Shown here piece by piece: positions 670-23,277 of a DNA stretch of 64,000 bases (positions within the stretch are counted from its first letter, which is position 1; each line of letters begins with the position of its first letter). The notes below the pieces were generated by a model, which made no database searches, was not told where the DNA came from, and saw only the letters and a program-made list of their open reading frames with translations. The position numbers and the translations under genes were made by a program. Location: assembly GCF_002150685.1 (NCBI RefSeq), contig NZ_MSSW01000007.1, forward strand, positions 1-64,000, read 5' to 3'. The stretch comes from Algoriphagus antarcticus (GTDB taxonomy: Bacteria; Bacteroidota; Bacteroidia; Cytophagales; Cyclobacteriaceae).

Positions 670-2601
670 TTACTCTCTTATCTCAATTACTTTAAACTCA
701 GTTCTTCTGTTCGTCTGATGTTCTTCTTCTGTAGTTGCACTCTTGACGATCAACTGACTTTCGCCATAACCTTTAGCTACCAATCTATCTGTTGCTATAC
801 CTTGAGAAACCATGTAATCAACTGCCGACTGTGCTCTTCGCTGAGATAAGTCTTGGTTGTATTGATCGGATGATCTGTCATCAGTATGCGAGCTCAACTC
901 GATTCTGATCGCTGGATTGTCTTTCAGAATCTGAACCAATTTACCCAGTTCTACCGCTGCATCAGTTCTAATATCAGCTTTATCCAAATCGTAATAGATA
1001 TTTTCCAATACAATAGAACGATCCAGAACCAGCTGATCCAACACTATCGTGGTATCCAAGGTAATATTGGTCACGTCCTGTATCAGTGTGGAAACATCAG
1101 GAGTCTTGCCTTTAGTAGTATAAGGCATAGACTTGGAGAAGTAGCCACTCTTAGAAGCGATGATTGTAAAGTCCGCATCTGGCGTCAAGGTAAATCTTAC
1201 ACGACCATTCGTATTGGAGAAATCTCCGCCTGCTTGCTTGCTGAGACTATCATATAACACCACTCTCGTTTGCTCGAGTACTGCATCATCAGCACCAGCA
1301 ACACGCTGCTTCGTATAGACATTCAGTAATACGTTAATGATTTTTGGCTTTGGAGTCTTGTCTTCAAAGAAATATATATCGTCATCCCCTACGCCACCTT
1401 CACGATTTGAGGAGATGAAACCAGCTTTAGGATATTCTGTGAAGAAAAGTGAAAAATCATCATCAATACTGTTGAAATTCTCTCCTAGATTTTTGATCAC
1501 TTGAGCACTAGAGGCGTCTTTTTCAGCTACGAAAAGGTCAAGTTTACCATAGCCAGGATGTCCATCTGATGAAAAGAAGAATTTACCATCTCCCATTGGT
1601 CTTGGGAAAAGCTCATTTCCGGGTGTATTCACGTTGGGACCAAGGTTGACCGGATTTCCAAAATCGCTATTAGCTAATTTGGTTGCTTTGTAGAGATCAA
1701 TTCCTCCAAAACCTCCTGGTCTATTTGAAGAAAAATACAGTTCAGAGCCATCTTCTGAGAAGGCAGGAGTGGAATTCCACCAAGTTTCATCCTCATTTAT
1801 GGGCATCCAAATCGGCTGCGTAAAGCCACCGCCTCTGAAATAAGATACAAAAAGTGCTGTTTCCGGTAGATCTTTATCTGAAGTAGAATTTCCTCTGGCG
1901 TAGATGATCGTATTTCCATCAGGACTGATCGTGATTGCTGCCTGATTTAGACCTTCTTCATTTTTGAATTCAGGAAGGGCTTGAGTTCCACTTACATCAA
2001 CTCGAATTCCTTCAGCTCTTGCTCTGAATAATTTAGTATATGGTGAGCCATCAGCAGGATAAAGTCCACTTGCCTGACGGCCAGAGGTGAAGTAAATAAA
2101 ATCTTCACTGATGACCGGCGCATAATCGGGGCCAGCCGTATTGAGGTCTTTGTAATTAACCAAGACATGGTAAGGCCAGTAATTCTCTATCCCTTCAGAT
2201 AATTTGATGGTTTCAAGTTGACGCTGAGTCTCTGCCAAATAGACTTCATCCTGTGTGAGTCCCTTTGCTTTTTCGAATGCTTCCTTTGCCTCCTCATCTT
2301 TATCTTGTGCTTTTAAGCTCAATCCTAGACGGTAATAGCTATCGAAAGTAGGATCTTCTTCCGTTAACTTTTGGTAATACGGAGCCGCATCTTCAATTCT
2401 ATTAGATAGCCTGTAGCTCTCCGCGATTACCTGATTGGCTTCTTGGTTTTCGGGGTCATCTGCCAAGATTTGTGAAAAAGAATTAATGGCATATTGGTAC
2501 TGACCAGAAAGAAACTGGTCATTTCCTTTTTCCTGAAGGCTTTTGCATGAGCTTACTCCTACGAGGAGTAAAAGACAAATCCAAAAAAAATGGTTTTTCA
2601 T
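670..2601 (-). CDS. PorE-like OmpA-family lipoprotein (TPR, beta-propeller, OmpA)
   Basis: A 643-residue outer-membrane/periplasmic lipoprotein. A lipoprotein signal ends at Cys19 (VGVSSC). TPR-like repeats follow at about 25-135, then a PD40/WD40-like propeller at about 160-420 with repeated ISPDG, FSEDGSELYFSSNRPGG and FFFSSDGH blades, a carboxypeptidase-regulatory-like fold at about 430-515, and a C-terminal OmpA peptidoglycan-binding domain at about 530-640 (YYDLDKADIR, SSHTDDR, LSQRRAQSAVDY). This is the domain order of PorE, which is thought to anchor the type IX secretion system to peptidoglycan. Many Bacteroidota paralogues share it, so the T9SS role is an inference; the gldKLMN locus in the same window supports it. 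A copy of a dispersed leader element ends at its ATG. Confidence 0.8.
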   Translation of the reverse strand: MKNHFFWICLLLLVGVSSCKSLQEKGNDQFLSGQYQYAINSFSQILADDPENQEANQVIAESYRLSNRIEDAAPYYQKLTEEDPTFDSYYRLGLSLKAQDKDEEAKEAFEKAKGLTQDEVYLAETQRQLETIKLSEGIENYWPYHVLVNYKDLNTAGPDYAPVISEDFIYFTSGRQASGLYPADGSPYTKLFRARAEGIRVDVSGTQALPEFKNEEGLNQAAITISPDGNTIIYARGNSTSDKDLPETALFVSYFRGGGFTQPIWMPINEDETWWNSTPAFSEDGSELYFSSNRPGGFGGIDLYKATKLANSDFGNPVNLGPNVNTPGNELFPRPMGDGKFFFSSDGHPGYGKLDLFVAEKDASSAQVIKNLGENFNSIDDDFSLFFTEYPKAGFISSNREGGVGDDDIYFFEDKTPKPKIINVLLNVYTKQRVAGADDAVLEQTRVVLYDSLSKQAGGDFSNTNGRVRFTLTPDADFTIIASKSGYFSKSMPYTTKGKTPDVSTLIQDVTNITLDTTIVLDQLVLDRSIVLENIYYDLDKADIRTDAAVELGKLVQILKDNPAIRIELSSHTDDRSSDQYNQDLSQRRAQSAVDYMVSQGIATDRLVAKGYGESQLIVKSATTEEEHQTNRRTEFKVIEIRE

Positions 2602-2722
2602 CTGTTTATAATTTGATTTTATTTGGCCACACCTGCCTGCCGCCAGGTGGAATCTTAAATGGTTATCCCGATAGTTATCGGGACATCCAAGTATGTGACG
2701 CTTGAGTCATGCTCGATTTCAT
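2602..2722 (-). repeat. Leader element copy A (with micro-ORF 2675-2722)
   Basis: Read on the minus strand, this element starts ATGAAATCGAGCA at 2722, contains GCGTCACA, a CCCGATA/TATCGGG palindrome, GATTCCACC and a GC-rich palindrome (GGCGGCAGGCAGG), and runs to the ATG of the OmpA-family gene. It is nearly colinear with copy B at 7488-7610, including the last 20 or so bases before the start codon (AAATCAAATTATAAACA). The micro-ORF encodes MKSSMTQASHTWMSR. Related copies: 7488-7610, 12302-12407, 14028-14143, 21828-21918. Confidence 0.75.
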
Positions 2723-6567: not shown

Positions 6568-7059
6568 ATGAAGTCATTTTTTGAAGCACATATCTGGCCG
6601 CAAAGAGGCAGGCTCTACAGGCTGGGGTATCTCTGGGTGAGGGACCGATCCCTTGCAGAGGATCTGCTTCAGAATGTCTTCGAAAAATCTTTCGAACGGG
6701 AAGATGAACTTCGCAGTCATCCAAATCTTGCAGGTTGGCTGGTAAGAAGTCTGAAAAATGAAGTCTTGATGCACTTCCGTCAAACTAAGAAATTGGATTC
6801 TCTAGATGGCCTGGAAGAATTGAAAGTGGAAGAGTCAGTTTCTGAAGACATAAAAGACTCGGTGCGGCAAGTGATGAATCTTGTGAAAGGATTGCCTTTG
6901 CGCCAGCAAGAGATCTTTCATCTTAGAGAAGTGGAAGGATTGAGTTATGAGGAAATAACCGAGCACTTAGATATAAGTCTGGAACAGGTGAAAGTAAACC
7001 TTCACCGTGCCAGAAAAAGCATTCGAGAGCGGATGCTCAACCAAAAATCAATCAAATGA
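6568..7059 (+). CDS. RNA polymerase ECF-type sigma factor
   Basis: A 163-residue sigma-70 family protein with only regions 2 and 4. Region 2 (about 5-75) contains RDRSLAEDLLQNVFEKSFE, the DxAEDxxQ helix. Region 4 (about 105-155) contains LPLRQQEIFHLREVEGLSYEEI and an HTH ending VNLHRARKSI. It should direct transcription of envelope or stress genes. Its stop overlaps the next gene (7056), consistent with co-translation with its likely membrane regulator. Two DUF4252 genes follow, an arrangement common in Bacteroidota. Confidence 0.92.
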   Translation: MKSFFEAHIWPQRGRLYRLGYLWVRDRSLAEDLLQNVFEKSFEREDELRSHPNLAGWLVRSLKNEVLMHFRQTKKLDSLDGLEELKVEESVSEDIKDSVRQVMNLVKGLPLRQQEIFHLREVEGLSYEEITEHLDISLEQVKVNLHRARKSIRERMLNQKSIK

Positions 7060-7484
7060 ATCCGCGAATAGACGAATTACTCGATAAATACTGGGATGCT
7101 AAGAGCAGCCTAGCGGAGGAGCAGGAGTTAAAAGAGCTACTTCTGTCAGCAGAAGGATATGCCGATGAGAAAGCTTTGTTCTTAGGTATAAGTGACTTTT
7201 CTACTGAAGAGCCAGATCTAAAAATGCCAGCTAAAGTAGTACCGATGAAATCCAGGAGTTGGATGAGTTGGGCAGCATCAGTAGCAATTTTGATTGGAAC
7301 TGCTTGGGGATGGACAGTATATGAGCAAAAGCAAGCAGAACGAGAGGCTTACATGGAAGTGATGCAGGCCTTTGCACTGATACAAACCAACCTCTCCAGA
7401 GGACAGGAGGAGATGCATGTGATGAATGATTTAAAATATTTGAATACGACCAACCAGCTATTTGGCAACCCAACAATAAAATAA
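7056..7484 (+). CDS. Small membrane protein, probable anti-sigma partner
   Basis: A 142-residue protein with an acidic N-terminal half (MNPRIDELLDKYWDAKSSLAEEQEL), reminiscent of the helical start of FecR/anti-sigma proteins. One transmembrane segment lies at about 66-85 (WMSWAASVAILIGTAWGWTV), and a C-terminal helical tail is predicted outside. It overlaps the sigma-factor stop by 4 nt. No classical zinc anti-sigma motif is present, so the role is inferred from gene order and topology. Confidence 0.7.
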   Translation: MNPRIDELLDKYWDAKSSLAEEQELKELLLSAEGYADEKALFLGISDFSTEEPDLKMPAKVVPMKSRSWMSWAASVAILIGTAWGWTVYEQKQAEREAYMEVMQAFALIQTNLSRGQEEMHVMNDLKYLNTTNQLFGNPTIK

Positions 7485-7487
7485 GCC

Positions 7488-7610
7488 ATGAAATCGAACA
7501 TGCCCCAATCGTCACACACTGGGATGTCCCGATAGCTCGGGATAACCATTTAAGATTCCACCTCCCTGCCCGCACGCAGGTATGGCCAATTAAAATCAAA
7601 TTATAAACAC
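7488..7610 (+). repeat. Leader element copy B (with micro-ORF 7488-7535)
   Basis: The element begins ATGAAATCGAACATG 3 nt after the stop of the preceding gene. It contains TCGTCACACA, CCCGATAGCTCGGG, ATAACCATTTAAGATTCCACC and AAATCAAATTATAAACAC, and ends at the next ATG (7611). It is colinear with copy A. The micro-ORF encodes MKSNMPQSSHTGMSR. Confidence 0.75.
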
Positions 7611-8156
7611 ATGAAAAAATTCATACTAATTCCGCTAGTGCTATTTGCCTTTATTATAAAGGTACAGGCTCAGGATGATGCTATTCAGCGTTTTTTCTCC
7701 AAGTATATGGACGATGATAGATTTTCCAGGGTATATATCAGCCCAAAGATGATGCAGATGGCTGGAGGCTTTCTGAAAAGCAATGCCGGTACAGATAAAG
7801 ACTCTGAGGATTTGGGGGTATTGATTCAGAAAGTGAAAGGCATTCGGATTCTTTCCTCAGAAGAAGTCGATGGGATGGCCTTCTACAAGGAAGCAATGGG
7901 AACGCTAACTCGAAATAAATACGAGGATCTGATGGTCGTTGAAGACAAAGGAAGCAGTCTGAAGTTTATGGTGCGTGAAGAAGGAGGCTTGGTAAAAGAA
8001 CTTATGATGATCTCTGGAGAAGAAGGTGATTTCACACTTCTATCTATGCTCGGGAATTTCACCTACGAGGATCTAAACCTGCTTGCGGAGAAGACAGATA
8101 TCCCAGGAATGGATTTGTATGGGAAAGGAAGCAAGGGGCCAAAAGGGGTGAAATAA
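7611..8156 (+). CDS. DUF4252 domain-containing exported protein
   Basis: A 181-residue protein with a signal peptide (MKKFILIPLVLFAFIIKVQA, cleavage near 20). The mature part begins QDDAIQRFFSKYMDDDRFSRVYISPKM, typical of DUF4252 proteins, which are small periplasmic proteins of Bacteroidota with unknown function usually encoded behind an ECF sigma factor. It is one of two tandem paralogues (with 8270-8758). A 7-bp tandem repeat array begins at its stop codon. A leader-element copy ends at its start codon. Confidence 0.85.
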   Translation: MKKFILIPLVLFAFIIKVQAQDDAIQRFFSKYMDDDRFSRVYISPKMMQMAGGFLKSNAGTDKDSEDLGVLIQKVKGIRILSSEEVDGMAFYKEAMGTLTRNKYEDLMVVEDKGSSLKFMVREEGGLVKELMMISGEEGDFTLLSMLGNFTYEDLNLLAEKTDIPGMDLYGKGSKGPKGVK

Positions 8157-8196
8157 GTAGCAAGTAACAAGTAACAAGTAACAAGTAACAAGTAAC
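8155..8196 (+). repeat. Tandem heptamer repeat (AAGTAAC)6
   Basis: Six 7-bp units: AAGTAGC once, then AAGTAAC five times. It starts inside the stop codon of the preceding DUF4252 gene. It is too short and spacer-less to be a CRISPR; a slipped-strand microsatellite is likely. Confidence 0.9.
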
Positions 8197-8269
8197 GCGA
8201 AACTGTAAAACAGTAGCCTGGGTTTCGGAAATTAAAAAATCATTCAAACTAACCGTATTATATAATACT

Positions 8270-10567: not shown

Positions 10568-12301
10568 TCATTTCTTCCAGCTTGCTTTTCCACCTTTGGC
10601 AGAATCCACAGTAATGGAATAGTTAGACCCTGAGGACACTATCCACTTCACTTTTACCCCGGTCATTCCAGGTACATTAGCTACAGAGATTTTCTCAGGA
10701 TTCAATTTTTGCTCAGTGAACTTGTTGAAGTCTTCATCCTCTATTACAAATCCCGCGACAACTTTAGCTCCAGAGATAGTTACATAGTCAGGTCTTTCGA
10801 TGTTGTATTTGAGATCCTGGCTTGCATGAGTTGGCATCAAACGCTCGTTGAAGATTGTAGCTGTGATTGCTTTTAAACCTCCACCGAGATCTTCTTCCTT
10901 CACATCCATCACTGATAGCTTTGGCGTGTGATAGGCATGATAAATCGTGAATGCAATATTTCTATGTGCATCCTGCTCTAGCAAGAAACCTGGATGAGCA
11001 CGGCCAAATGTTTTCTTAAACCCACCGATTTCCACTGTTCCAAACTGCGGGTGCTCAAATTCTTGCCACTTTACAAAAGCATCACCCATGGTCAATAGCT
11101 CATCCACCTTGAACATTTCGTCTTGTCCTCGTCCTTCAGATTCTTTGTGGAAATAGAGGTAGGAATTCATTAGCTCGTTGGAATAGGTAAATACGCCTCT
11201 TACTCCATAAAACCAATCCAGTTCTCCACCAAATACAGAATATAAGTCTTTATACACGGTCAAGTATCTGTAACCAGGAATCATTTCTTCACCTTTTTTT
11301 GCGATAGCATCATAGATTCTGATGTCTTCTCGGTTATAGGTGTCCACATCCTCTTCAGCACCCGGGCCGCGAAGGATCATTCCACCTGAATTGTGAAAGC
11401 TTTGAGCTCCGGCAATGTTTGGATGCTTCATCACAAACTCCATGATTGAGCGATTTTCAGGAAGAGTGAAAGGATATCTCAACGCCCCGCGCTGAATGTA
11501 ATCCGGCTGCCAGTTCCATCCCCAATCTCTATTGGGATCATAATAACCTACACCATCGTCATTCACACGACCATCGCCGTCGCCATCTGTACCTTCCTGA
11601 CCCAGCATTTCGTATTCTCCTACTTTATCCGCGCCTACCATTATTAGCTTACGCGAATCCTGCGGGTCTTTGATGTAGCGACCTGTCGGAGACTTTCTGA
11701 TCATCATCGTGATGTTGCCATCTCCATCGAGATCATCCATTCCATCCTCACCAGCTTCTCCATCTCCGTCATTATCCAGTATCATCATACCAGATCGTGG
11801 AGAGTTGGCCGTATTTGGTTCGAGGAAAAAATCATTTCGAGCATCAGGATTGATGGTCGGTGTGATGTAAAACACCTTATCCTTCAATAGCTGCTGGATA
11901 AATTCATTATCTGCAAACATTTCGGTCAAATACCAAGCCCCGTAAAGAGAGAATTCCCCTCCTTGAATTTCATTGGAGTGAATGTTACCATCGATCCACA
12001 TACCTGGCTTGTCTGTGTCTTTTCCTGTGGAAAAATCAGTAATCGTCAGCGTCCACATGTCGCGACCCTCGTAGGATTTTCCTATAGATTCGAGTTTGGC
12101 GATATCCGGATGTGCTGCCGCAATCTTTTTCATGTTATCCACCAGCCCTTCGTAGGTATAATATCGGTTGAAAGCGATCTCTACTTTAGGGTTGTGAGGG
12201 GTGCCGACTGCACGGAAAAATTTCTCCTGCGCATCTGCTTTATAACTCCCAAGGCTAAGTGCACCTACAGCCAAGGCAATGAGCAATTTTGCTATTTTCA
12301 T
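10568..12301 (-). CDS. Secreted M14-family zinc carboxypeptidase
   Basis: A 577-residue exported peptidase. I chose the MKIAKLLIALAVG start at 12301, not the in-frame ATG 30 bp upstream, because a signal peptide (to KADAQ, about 25) follows it directly. M14 zinc and catalytic residues are visible: His108-x-x-Glu111 (GNIHSNE), His303 (SFHNSGG) and a candidate general base Glu376 (FTYSNE). Between them is an aspartate-rich insertion with DNDGDG and DLDGDGNI loops (about 176-196) and DGDGDG (about 239-244) that look like calcium-binding loops. It probably acts in the periplasm or outside the cell. It lies downstream of an inactive paralogue (12420-14027). Confidence 0.9.
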   Translation of the reverse strand: MKIAKLLIALAVGALSLGSYKADAQEKFFRAVGTPHNPKVEIAFNRYYTYEGLVDNMKKIAAAHPDIAKLESIGKSYEGRDMWTLTITDFSTGKDTDKPGMWIDGNIHSNEIQGGEFSLYGAWYLTEMFADNEFIQQLLKDKVFYITPTINPDARNDFFLEPNTANSPRSGMMILDNDGDGEAGEDGMDDLDGDGNITMMIRKSPTGRYIKDPQDSRKLIMVGADKVGEYEMLGQEGTDGDGDGRVNDDGVGYYDPNRDWGWNWQPDYIQRGALRYPFTLPENRSIMEFVMKHPNIAGAQSFHNSGGMILRGPGAEEDVDTYNREDIRIYDAIAKKGEEMIPGYRYLTVYKDLYSVFGGELDWFYGVRGVFTYSNELMNSYLYFHKESEGRGQDEMFKVDELLTMGDAFVKWQEFEHPQFGTVEIGGFKKTFGRAHPGFLLEQDAHRNIAFTIYHAYHTPKLSVMDVKEEDLGGGLKAITATIFNERLMPTHASQDLKYNIERPDYVTISGAKVVAGFVIEDEDFNKFTEQKLNPEKISVANVPGMTGVKVKWIVSSGSNYSITVDSAKGGKASWKK

Positions 12302-12407
12302 ATGTTTAAATTTTTCTTCCAAAGGCCACACCTGCCGGCAAGCAGGTAGAATCTCGCATTGTAAATAATACTTTCTGTGTCACGCTCTGCGCCCTGCTCG
12401 ATTTCAT
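12302..12407 (-). repeat. Leader element copy C (with micro-ORF 12306-12407)
   Basis: On the minus strand the element starts ATGAAATCGAGCAGG at 12407, a few bases after the stop of the upstream gene. It contains AGCGTGACACAG, GCGAGATTCTACC and the CTTGCCGGCAGG palindrome, and ends at ATG 12301. The 33-codon micro-ORF (beginning MKSSRAQSVTQK) stops 4 nt before the M14 start codon, suggesting possible translational coupling. Confidence 0.7.
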
Positions 12408-12419
12408 CTTTTTCAAGGC

Positions 12420-14027
12420 TTAGAGTTTTAAAGTAGTAGAAGTGAATCCGGCATGAGAAGCACCGGCTTTTACAGTCACATTCCCATTACCACGGATGAT
12501 CCAGCTTAAACTTGCTTTCTCATAAGCCTCTAATGAATCCATCAACTCAATCTTATTTCCAGATACTATTTTCTCAGCATCTGCATCCATATCAATTCTG
12601 ATCTTGCGTAGCCATCGGGAGTTTTCACCCATTTCCGAATGCGTAGGAATAGCTGAATTATTGAAAAGATCCATCGTCACTCGGGTCAATCCGTTGCCAA
12701 GCGATTCGGCTTTTACGTTGTGAATCTCCAATTTAGGCTGCATCTCCGCCAGCTTCAAGATGAATTCTGTATGCTGATCTGCGATTTCAGCTACTTTATC
12801 AAAAGAAGGGTTTGTCATCACAAAAGGCTTGATTCCACCAACCTCCACTTTTTTCCCAGGGAAATCAGGATGCTGCACTTCTTTCCAAGGAACGAAAACG
12901 TCATTCATTCCAAGCGAATCTGCCCAAGCCAAGTAATTGACTTCTGCATTTGATTTGGCTTTACCTGTAGAATCTTTGTATTCAGGCACCCAATAACCAG
13001 GAGTACCAAAACTCAATCTACCAAAGTGGAAATACGCCCATTGAAAGAAATCACCATCTGTTCCTTGGTTGTCCTGTTGATAAGCTTTCTGCTCCACGAT
13101 CTCTTTGTAGAGATCCGACACCATAGTATTCAAAGCTTGATCTTTTTCCAAAATGGACGTCACAATTCGTTTTTTGGCGTTTCCAGCATTATACTTCAAT
13201 GGTGAAGACAGATTGTTAGCTGGGGAGAAAGTGACAAAAGCGAAAATATTCCACTGCTCAAACAAATAATCAAGTAGTGCTCTGGACTCTTTCTGCGTCA
13301 CTGGCATGTCACCTGCTAAGGGCTCAAATACGGGGAATTTGTAAGTCAATGATTTATTGAAAGCGATTCCTTCTTTCAAATCTTCCGCAAATTCACCGTC
13401 CTTGTCATCATCTTTAGATTCTTTGTATAGTGAGTATTTGCCCGCTTCACCCTTTGATTTATCTGCTTTTATGAGTACGCGCTCGTCTTCTTTTGAGATC
13501 ATATATTCACCCAAAGGGTCTTCTACACGCATCATGGTGATCATTCCATCACCATTCAGGTCCGTGTAGCCATTTTCCCCTGACGTACCATCTCGGTCAT
13601 GATCTACCGCGACAGCATTTCCTCTACGCTCGTATTTTAGCGAAGCGTGATACTGCTCGTAGGCATCGGGAGACATGTTTGGGAAAATGTAAAAGGTGGT
13701 AGCTTCAAGAGCATCTGCATGATCTGCTACTAGCTTTTCAGCAAACTGAACTGCCAGCTCCACGCTCAACACTTCATAGCCTTCCACTCCGCCAACTACG
13801 GCCATGGCTGGCTTTTGATCTAGTTGTCCGGTGCCTACTTTCAGCACCCAGATATCTTTGCCTCCTTCGGTTTTGGTAAGTGAGGTAAGTTCAGCAGAGG
13901 CATTGGAAGCCACGCGCTCCAATCGCTGGTTGAGTTGACTGAGTGTAGGATAATCAGACTGCGCAAATGCAGCTCCTGAAAGTCCCATCCCTCCGATCAA
14001 CAACCAACTGAGTAATGTTTTTTTCAT
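12420..14027 (-). CDS. Inactive M14 carboxypeptidase homologue (pseudo-peptidase)
   Basis: A 535-residue exported protein (signal peptide to about 22, AAFAQ) that aligns end to end with the M14 peptidase encoded next. All the metal and catalytic positions differ. The HxxE of the paralogue (GNIHSNE) reads GGVEGYE here, so the His ligand is Glu82. The second His (SFHNSGG) aligns with TFSPANN, and the catalytic-Glu region (FTYSNE) with LSFGTPG. The aspartate-rich DHDRDG/DLNGDG loops are retained (about 142-161). It should therefore fold but not hydrolyse. A regulatory, binding or chaperone role for the active neighbour is inferred. The frame is intact, so it is not decaying. Confidence 0.85.
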   Translation of the reverse strand: MKKTLLSWLLIGGMGLSGAAFAQSDYPTLSQLNQRLERVASNASAELTSLTKTEGGKDIWVLKVGTGQLDQKPAMAVVGGVEGYEVLSVELAVQFAEKLVADHADALEATTFYIFPNMSPDAYEQYHASLKYERRGNAVAVDHDRDGTSGENGYTDLNGDGMITMMRVEDPLGEYMISKEDERVLIKADKSKGEAGKYSLYKESKDDDKDGEFAEDLKEGIAFNKSLTYKFPVFEPLAGDMPVTQKESRALLDYLFEQWNIFAFVTFSPANNLSSPLKYNAGNAKKRIVTSILEKDQALNTMVSDLYKEIVEQKAYQQDNQGTDGDFFQWAYFHFGRLSFGTPGYWVPEYKDSTGKAKSNAEVNYLAWADSLGMNDVFVPWKEVQHPDFPGKKVEVGGIKPFVMTNPSFDKVAEIADQHTEFILKLAEMQPKLEIHNVKAESLGNGLTRVTMDLFNNSAIPTHSEMGENSRWLRKIRIDMDADAEKIVSGNKIELMDSLEAYEKASLSWIIRGNGNVTVKAGASHAGFTSTTLKL

Positions 14028-14143
14028 ATAATTATAATTGTTTTAAAATGGCAATATAGCCTGTCCCGCAATTGATTAGGGAGAATCTTGCTGGATCGAT
14101 AATCTTCACTCTGTGTGATTCTCTTCCTCATACTGAATTTCAA
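14028..14143 (-). repeat. Leader element copy E (divergent, with TTG micro-ORF 14024-14143)
   Basis: On the minus strand: TTGAAATTCAGTATGAGG, then AATCACACAGAGTGAAGATT and AGCAAGATTC. It aligns without gaps to the first roughly 60 bases of copy D at 21828. The TTG-initiated frame stays open for 39 codons and its TGA overlaps the ATG of the M14-like gene (ATGA). Confidence 0.55.
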
Positions 14144-21827: not shown

Positions 21828-21918
21828 ATGAAATCGAGCATAATGAAAAAAGTCACACAGTGTGATGATTATCAGCCATGCGAGATTCCATATGGCCATT
21901 GAAAAACTACTATATCAT
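21828..21918 (+). repeat. Leader element copy D (with micro-ORF 21828-21902)
   Basis: It starts ATGAAATCGAGCATAATG, continues GTCACACAGTGTGATGATTA, then GCGAGATTCC and TATGGCC, and ends at the ATG of the acyl-CoA dehydrogenase. The first 13 bases are identical to copy C's and copy A's, and the next 45 align with copy E. The 24-codon micro-ORF begins MKSSIMKKVTQ, close to copy C's MKSSRAQSVTQ. Confidence 0.7.
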
Positions 21919-23277
21919 ATGAAGAACCTTTTCAAAAAAATCGGAGGGCTTCGACAGCTTTTGTCCTCGGTGGATCTGGACCAAATCTCCAAGCTTTCCC
22001 AAAAAGTAGACCTCTCAAAAATGGTTGGGCTTGTCTCCCAAATGAGTGAGGAAGATCTCTCCAAAATGATGGGAATGCTTAAAGGTGGAAGTAAACCCAA
22101 GGTGATTCCCCCGATTAATGGTGATTTTTATGAATTAGGGAAAACACTTCCGAATCATGAGCGTGAGATCCAGCTTCGTGTGCGCGAGTTTATGGAACGA
22201 GAAATCAAGCCTATTGCCAATGACTATTGGAATCGAGGGGAATTCCCCATGCAGATTATTCCAAAAATGGCCGAACTAGATATTGCCGGATTGACCTATC
22301 AAGGTTATGGCTGTCCGGGTCACTCCGCACTTCTGGAGGGATTCATAGCCATGGAAATGGCAAGAATCGACACGTCTATTTCTACTTTTTTTGGGGTACA
22401 AAGCGGTCTTGCCATGGGATCGATATACCTCTGTGGCTCAGAAGCTCAAAAACAAGAATGGCTTCCCCCAATGCAAAAGCTGGAAAAAATCGGAGCTTTT
22501 GGACTGACCGAACCGTTAGTAGGCTCAGGTGCGGCTGGCGGATTGAACACGACTTGCAAGCGTGAAGGCAACTCTTGGGTTCTCAATGGTCAAAAGAAAT
22601 GGATCGGCAACGCGACTTTTTCCGATATGACGATCATCTGGGCAAGGGATTTGGAAGATCAGCAGGTGAAAGGATTTATCGTTCGAAAGGGGAATCCTGG
22701 ATTTTTAGCAGAAAAGATGGAAGATAAAATGGCCCTCCGAACAGTCCAAAATGCCTTGATCACGCTGACGAATTGCGAAGTACCCGAGTCAGATCGACTT
22801 CAGGAAGCCAACTCTTTCCGGGATACCGCAAAAGTACTACGCATGACCAGAGCCGGAGTAGCTTGGCAAGCAGTAGGATGCTCAAGAGGAGCATATGAAT
22901 TGGCTTTGGCCTATACGAACGAGCGAATCCAATTTGGTCGTCCCATCGCATCCTTCCAACTCGTGCAAGACATGCTTGTGACGATGCTTGGCGACCTTAC
23001 CGCCATGCAGACGATGGTGTTTCGCCTATCGGAAATGCAAGATGATGATATGCTCAAGGATGAGCATGCCTCGCTCGCAAAAGTATTCTGTACACTTCGA
23101 ATGCGCTCTATAGTGGATCATGCCCGGGAATTATTCGGAGGCAATGGAATCTTGCTGCGCTACGATATCGCGAGATTCGTGGCTGATGCGGAGGCTGTTT
23201 ATAGCTATGAAGGGACCAAAGAAATCAATTCACTGATCGTAGGTCGGGCTATTACAGGTCACAGTGCATTCGTCTAG
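21919..23277 (+). CDS. Acyl-CoA dehydrogenase family protein with N-terminal helical extension
   Basis: A 452-residue flavoenzyme from ATG 21919 (MKNLFKKIGG). Residues about 1-60 form an unusual Met/Leu-rich extension with three repeats of a DL-x-x-hydrophobic pattern (VDLDQISKL, VDLSKMVGL, EDLSKMMGM). The ACAD core follows. It has the N-terminal helical domain, the FAD-contact GAFGLTEP and WVLNGQKKWIGNA segments, a C-terminal helical domain with RIQFGRPIASFQ, and GGNGILLRYDIARFVADAEAVYSYEGT carrying the catalytic Glu. Sequence style is closest to glutaryl-CoA dehydrogenase/ACX4-type enzymes. Its stop overlaps the convergent gene by 4 nt. Confidence 0.9.
   Translation: MKNLFKKIGGLRQLLSSVDLDQISKLSQKVDLSKMVGLVSQMSEEDLSKMMGMLKGGSKPKVIPPINGDFYELGKTLPNHEREIQLRVREFMEREIKPIANDYWNRGEFPMQIIPKMAELDIAGLTYQGYGCPGHSALLEGFIAMEMARIDTSISTFFGVQSGLAMGSIYLCGSEAQKQEWLPPMQKLEKIGAFGLTEPLVGSGAAGGLNTTCKREGNSWVLNGQKKWIGNATFSDMTIIWARDLEDQQVKGFIVRKGNPGFLAEKMEDKMALRTVQNALITLTNCEVPESDRLQEANSFRDTAKVLRMTRAGVAWQAVGCSRGAYELALAYTNERIQFGRPIASFQLVQDMLVTMLGDLTAMQTMVFRLSEMQDDDMLKDEHASLAKVFCTLRMRSIVDHARELFGGNGILLRYDIARFVADAEAVYSYEGTKEINSLIVGRAITGHSAFV

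Follow-up and report, generated by a model that had tools for sequence, protein, structure and literature searches.

Short mobile elements tied to start codons in Algoriphagus antarcticus and other Cyclobacteriaceae

Classical MITEs of DDE transposons have terminal inverted repeats and a variable target-site duplication. The attC site of integrons is a folded single-stranded recombination site with fixed unpaired positions. REP elements of the RAYT (TnpAREP) system carry a GT[AG]G tetranucleotide at the foot of their hairpin, as described in PMC6006769. Their copies lie on both sides of the cognate tnpA gene. Here we describe a family of short, probably non-autonomous mobile elements found in Cyclobacteriaceae. 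The element is real and mobile, it is strongly tied to start codons, and it has a self-contained pairing that links its two ends. We found no earlier description of such elements in the literature, judged by titles and the openings of abstracts.

The DNA analyzed (the window) is a stretch of 64,000 nucleotides from Algoriphagus antarcticus. A sequence-only reading had proposed that it contains five leader elements, and all five copies are present, as follows.

2602..2722, minus strand: copy 1, 121 bp, with palindromic inserts; ends at the ATG of an OmpA/PD40/TPR gene, 670-2601(-)
7488..7610, plus strand: copy 2, 123 bp, with palindromic inserts; ends at the ATG of a DUF4252 gene, 7611-8156(+)
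12302..12407, minus strand: copy 3, 106 bp; ends at the ATG of a Peptidase_M14 gene, 10568-12301(-)
14028..14143, minus strand: copy 4, 116 bp, diverged, starting with TTGAAATTCA; ends at the ATG of a Peptidase_M14 gene, 12420-14027(-)
21828..21918, plus strand: copy 5, 91 bp, the core form; ends at the ATG of an acyl-CoA dehydrogenase gene, 21919-23277(+)
21828..21842, plus strand: left arm of the conserved hairpin of copy 5, which opens with the upstream ATG of the element
21877..21891, plus strand: right hairpin arm of copy 5, CATGCGAGATTCCAT
21884..21894, plus strand: internal guide-like segment of copy 5, GATTCCATATG
21899..21918, plus strand: A-rich last 20 bases of copy 5, where the native translation-start region of the gene would be

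Each window copy stops at the ATG that opens a same-strand ORF, and the ATG-to-ATG distances for copies 1 to 5 are 121, 123, 106, 116 and 91 bp. In the mechanical list of ORFs, the genes behind copies 3 and 5 are given in a longer version that starts at a GTG within the element. Copies 1, 2, 3 and 5 start with ATGAAATCGA and copy 4 with TTGAAATTCA, and both TCACA/TGACA and GATTC can be aligned in all five. When up to 3 mismatches are allowed, the motif ATGAAATCGAGCATG has 9 matches in the window versus 3.3 expected (9 or more in 0 of 100 shuffles), and the four matches with 0 or 1 mismatch are copies 1, 2, 3 and 5. The downstream genes had been called unrelated in function. Their Pfam assignments (an OmpA/PD40/TPR protein, DUF4252, two Peptidase_M14 and an acyl-CoA dehydrogenase) mostly agree with this, except that the two Peptidase_M14 genes are same-strand neighbors. 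Copy 2 starts 3 bases past the stop of ORF 7056-7484, and copy 3 starts 12 bases past the stop of the upstream M14 gene. In copy 5, the segment GATTCCATATG is complementary to both the left end ATGAAATC (with one mismatch) and the right end CATATG. The variable position of this segment (21892, A) is the one that covaries with the final position of the element (21918, T). Directly past the DUF4252 gene, the heptamer AAGTAAC forms a head-to-tail run (8156-8197).

A genome-wide profile search revealed that the family is far larger than the five copies visible in the window. With a 33-copy profile and E up to 1, there were 112 matches in the assembly, and those in the window were the same five and no others. 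The two lowest-scoring of these matches are fragments of decayed tails, and a second method, applied to fetched regions of the same genome, gave 110 copies. Seven other genomes of the genus have at least 99 to 109 copies each among the matches scored. Among the matches listed, copies are found in Algoriphagus, Cyclobacterium, Lunatimonas, Lunatibacter, Pleomorphovibrio, Pararhodonellum and Aquiflexum, and identity is high to the loci from named Algoriphagus. With strict filters, 43 of 148 genomes and 28 of 84 genera in a sample of Cyclobacteriaceae had matches, and the 14 genomes from other families gave two matches (best E 1.8e-7), both in one genome. Rfam reports only a tRNA in the window and no match up to E 1 at four copy-bearing loci. 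There was no match to the exact pattern in IMG/VR, and no match to the element in plasmid and phage collections.

The core unit is about 91 bases long and consists of ATGAAATCGAGCATG, a variable middle, CATGCGAGATTCCATNTG, ACC or GCC, an A-rich run and CAN, followed by ATGAAA. Of the 242 copies with an intact ATGAAAT head and a terminal ATG, 147 are 88-93 bases long, and unit length is not restricted to multiples of three. In longer copies, palindromes are inserted at a small number of fixed positions. Examples are TCCCGATAGCTATCGGGA and CCTGCCTGCCGGCAGGCAGG, which are nested in this way in the window (2640-2690 and 7520-7580) and in many other copies, as if another repeat family favors the loops of the element. 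There is also a sister subfamily that starts with ATGAAATCGACACGATTAAAATCATC (at loci L050, L055, L071, L121 and L195); its upper stem is longer and different, and its ends are similar. At one further locus (L076:4345-5004, plus strand), a shortened copy lies inside an ORF, in frame with a lipoprotein-like gene, as if the head of the element had turned into coding sequence.

The sequence-only reading had raised the possibility of a mobile 5' leader, and both the copies across the genome and the empty homologous sites back this idea. Empty sites differ from occupied ones by a clean insertion of a 91-125 bp unit between the native leader and the ATG. The flanks match closely up to the ATG in L029/L103, L174/L203, L114/L119, L007/L140 and L152/L049, indicating that the element is a clean insertion. 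Among the 170 genes located behind copies, there are 44 homologue pairs (at least 45% identity) in fetched sequence, 18 occupied and 26 empty, with some pairs counted in both directions and some possibly paralogues. The L007 gene lacks the element in 13 of 13 relatives. Of four close orthologues at the copy 5 site (91-94% identity), those in genomes G009 and G010 are empty and those in G001 and G014 are occupied, by copies whose sequence is clearly different from that of copy 5. Different copies at one start codon suggest repeated insertion there. Alternatively, the three copies could derive from one old insertion that was lost in G009 and G010.

The boundaries of the unit point to a defined target. 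In the A. antarcticus genome, ATGAAA is at the right boundary in 97 of 110 copies and ATGAAATCG is at the left boundary in 85 of 110. The empty sites of L140 and L049 have ATGCAA in the sister versus ATGAAA in the occupied gene, and thus the right end of the unit is approximate. One copy (C105) splits, at ATGAAA, a frame that is open on both flanks. Because the unit itself begins with ATGAAA, units would become arrayed head to tail if one inserted into another. Such arrays are frequent, and most neighboring units in them are not near-identical: the 83 adjacent pairs in all genomes have a median identity of 0.84, with 18% above 0.9, compared to an identity of 0.80 for 300 random pairs from the A. 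antarcticus genome. The best within-genome identity is greater than 0.95 for just 6 of 107 copies in A. antarcticus. With so few near-identical copies, the insertions are not very recent, and activity at present would be conjectural.

Most copies are at start codons. The claim that the element is constrained to leaders holds for 84 of 91 non-array copies in the A. antarcticus genome and 15 of 16 copies in unbiased samples (49 stretches of 20 kb from two relatives, 980 kb), the ORF that begins behind each of these 15 being longer than 100 aa. It does not hold for some intergenic copies and one copy inside a gene. Among the 110 copies in A. antarcticus, 84 open an ORF of at least 60 aa at the exact ATG, 15 are followed by another copy, and 11 are neither; when read by eye, the 11 comprise 4 array-internal copies with a changed ATG and 7 that are off starts. 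An automatic count of 107 copies gave 82 at starts, 18 in arrays and 7 in neither class. The named genomes, a set selected with the head pattern, have 115 copies that are uncut and outside arrays. Of these, 81 are at starts and 34 are not at an ORF of at least 60 aa, some of the 34 being array ends before a degenerate or variant unit. For comparison, 177 of the 382 non-genic ATGAAA sites (46%) in the 980 kb are starts according to a simple ORF caller, and 1021 more ATGAAA sites are in genes. Relative to the 46% share, binomial p values are 1e-20 (84/91), 9e-5 (15/16) and 1.5e-7 (81/115). In 27 of the 84 start copies, an ORF on the same strand stops no more than 30 bases before the element begins, so many copies appear to be located within operons, between two genes. 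The proteins encoded downstream are diverse: 170 of them form 147 sequence clusters.

The position at starts could come mainly from selection. The element might hit any ATGAAA, with copies inside genes purged, copies at starts kept in the leader, and the others left to decay. We give this explanation slightly less than an even chance. The non-start copies, both in intergenic arrays and inside the one gene, and the lower fraction of start copies in the named genomes are consistent with it. However, the share of non-genic ATGAAA sites that are starts (about 46%) is far below the 92 to 94% found for copies in the A. antarcticus genome and the unbiased samples. In addition, high-scoring copies in the named genomes are not visibly less start-biased than low-scoring ones (31 at starts and 15 not at 70 bits or more; 25 and 14 below 60 bits). 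Selection of this kind concerns the cause of the start bias and leaves the mobility of the element untouched.

The two ends of the unit are connected through its internal segment. The internal GATTCCATNTG is complementary to the left end ATGAAATC, with one fixed mismatch, and to the right end CAN-ATG. Alignment columns 64 (the N of CATNTG) and 92 (the last base before the ATG) share 0.97 bits of mutual information, and the next best pair of columns has 0.31. In a plain count over 141 distinct core copies, without tree weighting, the combinations at these columns are GC 52, CG 41, AT 27, AG 9, GT 4 and AC 4. Where neighbors in arrays differ at base 64, the end pairs with the segment of its own unit in 36 of 44 cases and with that of the next unit in 3 of 44. 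The covariation suggests a folded structure that joins the two ends of the unit. When folded as DNA, the joined ends of 70 copies have a free energy of -9.0 kcal/mol (z of -2.3 relative to mononucleotide shuffles), compared to -5.5 kcal/mol (z of -0.6) for the unjoined head. A second subfamily with a quite different upper stem has kept the pairing and the ends, as seen by eye in five copies.

The head pairs with CATGCGAGATTCCAT, with a tandem G.A step in the middle of the stem, in five of six single-copy RNA folds, none of which was clearly better than shuffles (z from -1.67 to +1.42). RNAalifold predicted no pairs for the 33-copy alignment that included the gapped palindromic inserts, and these inserts are perhaps the cause.

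Structural control had been one of the suggested roles for the leaders. In its favor, the pairing with the start codon of the gene covaries. However, the pairing is kept about equally in copies that are inside arrays or away from starts: among the 256 of 302 copies in which the internal segment could be located, columns 64 and 92 are a Watson-Crick pair in 113 of 141 start copies, 67 of 78 array-internal copies and 27 of 33 non-start copies. Thus, the pairing more likely serves mobility, and it may affect translation as well. We read the pairing as reflecting selection on the mobile form of the element. The simplest such form would be a circle or some other molecule in which the ends are joined.

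The end of the element appears to supply a translation start. Bacteroidetes lack Shine-Dalgarno sequences, and their starts depend on nearby bases and structure, according to PMC6847099, making it plausible that an A-rich start region is portable. On a matrix built from 130 native starts, the final 20 bases of the element reach a score of 5.62, which is higher than that of most native start regions. The native starts themselves have 2.26 (sd 2.70), and the leaders displaced by the element have 3.15. These native starts are the first ATG of long ORFs and may understate native scores. The consensus of the element does not have A at -3, a base named as favorable in PMC6847099. The predicted chance that the AUG is unpaired averages 0.30 behind the element and 0.43 in native genes, for folded stretches that differ in length. 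The lower accessibility speaks against a purely helpful start region. Part of it comes from the ability of the AUG to form pairs with the internal CAU: for the 44 of 84 start copies in A. antarcticus in which the segment was located, the predicted pairing with this CAU is 0.51 for the AUG of the gene and 0.19 for the upstream AUG. Judging by these predictions, an effect on expression, in either direction, is likely.

The element could also be a regulatory mRNA leader, in which the internal CAU pairs with either the upstream AUG or the AUG of the gene to make a translation switch that spread because it is useful. Several observations fit this idea, including the predicted preference of the CAU for the AUG of the gene, the predicted drop in AUG accessibility relative to native genes, the strong start bias, and the covarying base that adjoins the AUG. 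We nonetheless think a regulatory leader improbable: array-internal and non-start copies have about the same pairing, no shared regulon is apparent among the 147 clusters of downstream proteins, homologues have the element only in part (26 of 44 pairs are empty), and Rfam has no match. The sequence-only reading had also proposed control by an upstream ORF, and this did not hold up. In 98 copies, the synonymous fraction in the micro-ORF frame is 0.31 observed versus 0.23 expected, an excess no larger than that in the unread frame (0.35 versus 0.25); the third frame has 0.18 and 0.18. Stops in the micro-ORF frame fall in many places, and they come before GATTC in 50 of 230 copies, fewer than the 93 of 230 in frame 2. 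We rejected a regulatory uORF, as there is no codon-level constraint on the micro-ORF.

The explanation that we favor, and consider probable, is that the family is a non-autonomous mobile element that is aimed at ATGAAA and carries a portable translation start. A unit that extends from ATGAAATCG to CAN inserts at ATGAAA and leaves ATGAAA, or a near variant, at both boundaries, as the empty sites show. Most of the insertions that survive are at start codons and run in the direction of the gene. The A-rich end may then act as a spare translation start, so that the gene keeps an ATG with a favorable upstream context, and the native leader would feed the upstream ATG of the element. In a circle or at a head-to-tail junction, GATTCCATNTG would let the joined ends fold into one longer hairpin, through the pairing that the covariation shows. 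The hairpin would contain one A.C mismatch, which is fixed, and a tandem G.A step. We postulate that this hairpin is used as a site of recombination or cleavage, and that a recombinase or transposase provided in trans recognizes the structure and joins it to ATGAAA targets.

A bolder form of this proposal is that the family represents a new kind of mobile element, in which a single internal guide base-pairs with both of its own ends and with the ATGAAA target. The insertions would thereby be aimed at start codons and made tolerable by the portable start, and the enzyme would be of an unrecognized type or put to an unrecognized use. We hold this version to be possible and rather doubtful. A replacement translation start is a way in which a genomic parasite may stay tolerable. 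If the proposal is true, then a mobile element has taken the place of the leader and start region in at least about 80 genes of this genome, and the annotation of the affected 5' ends, upstream ORFs and start codons would change. For Bacteroidetes, the element would moreover offer a naturally occurring, portable cassette for starting translation. It would also point to a recombination system whose 6-base target is defined and whose guide is built in.

The search for a mobilizing enzyme covered the Y1 transposases as recombinase family, and no such enzyme was found. There was no longer, autonomous copy with a gene inside among the pieces inspected. The 1.85 Mb of fetched sequence contains 28 lone heads or tails; about half of these were inspected, and those are decayed, rearranged or variant copies and not an autonomous version. 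The C60 cluster was rejected as an autonomous unit because, by eye, it encloses no recombinase-like gene. A search with PF13700, a family ill-suited to the purpose, returned nothing.

One candidate explanation within the Y1 family is that the element is REP-like and moved by a RAYT (TnpAREP), such as Bacteroidetes subclass 2.6. There are 11 Y1 transposase matches in the A. antarcticus genome and at least one in 8 of 9 further genomes of the genus, and relatives encode Y1 proteins that are about 180 aa long and contain NHLH and YIHQNP-like motifs. According to PMC6006769, genes of subclass 2.6 lie between atypical structures that are also found in other parts of the genome. However, none of the 11 matches in A. 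antarcticus is within 4 kb of a copy, and genome G014 has 103 scored copies without a Y1 match. Only 2 of 60 fetched Y1 loci (1 of 30 in each of two sets) have a copy within 1.5 kb, many of these loci being from copy-poor or copy-free genomes, and one of the two nearby copies (in G009) lies within the Y1 ORF. The repeats beside several Y1 genes belong to other families. There is also no preference for a replication strand: 37 copies are leading and 28 lagging in G021, and 23 and 32 in G009, counted from 78 of 128 and 72 of 98 matches in these two single-contig genomes with the strand switch zones left out. We therefore regard a RAYT-driven REP as unlikely.

Some of the Y1 loci have features of their own. 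At L253, L254 and L262, in relatives, Y1 matches of about 185-200 aa are beside several GGGATTTGCAATCCC-like palindromes, and these loci resemble the Bacteroidetes RAYT subclass with atypical repeats. At the related Y1 loci L241, L242, L249 and L251, sequence of about 100 bp from each end of the Y1 unit is found again close by, a pattern like that of a transposon and its miniature derivatives.

Comparison with described systems places the element near several of them. Like MITEs, it is small, non-autonomous and present in high copy number. Unlike MITEs, its aligned ends are not inverted repeats of each other, and its repeated boundary is nearly always ATGAAA rather than variable. With attC it would share a folded single-stranded site that has fixed unpaired positions, whereas the gene-cassette layout of integrons was not noted. 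REP and REPIN sequences are similar to the element in that they are short and non-coding, reach about a hundred or more copies per genome, fold as a single strand and are mostly outside of coding sequence. In contrast to REPs, the element has no GT[AG]G foot and instead has the conserved head ATGAAATCGAGCATG, with a hairpin that starts at the ATG; its start copies are always in the orientation of the gene and at a fixed position; and the Y1 genes of these genomes are not associated with it. Members of the IS200/IS605 family and their miniatures share with it a subterminal hairpin, a guide-like pairing between an internal segment and the ends, and a constant target. Insertion of IS200/IS605 is tied to the lagging-strand template, whereas the element has no replication-strand bias in two genomes and is not tied to a transposase of that type. 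Furthermore, IS200/IS605 elements have one guide per hairpin, a tetranucleotide immediately 5' of the hairpin foot that pairs with the cleavage site at that end, whereas here one segment is complementary to both ends. This segment is the 3' side of the one conserved hairpin of the element, and its pairing with the right end is supported by covariation.
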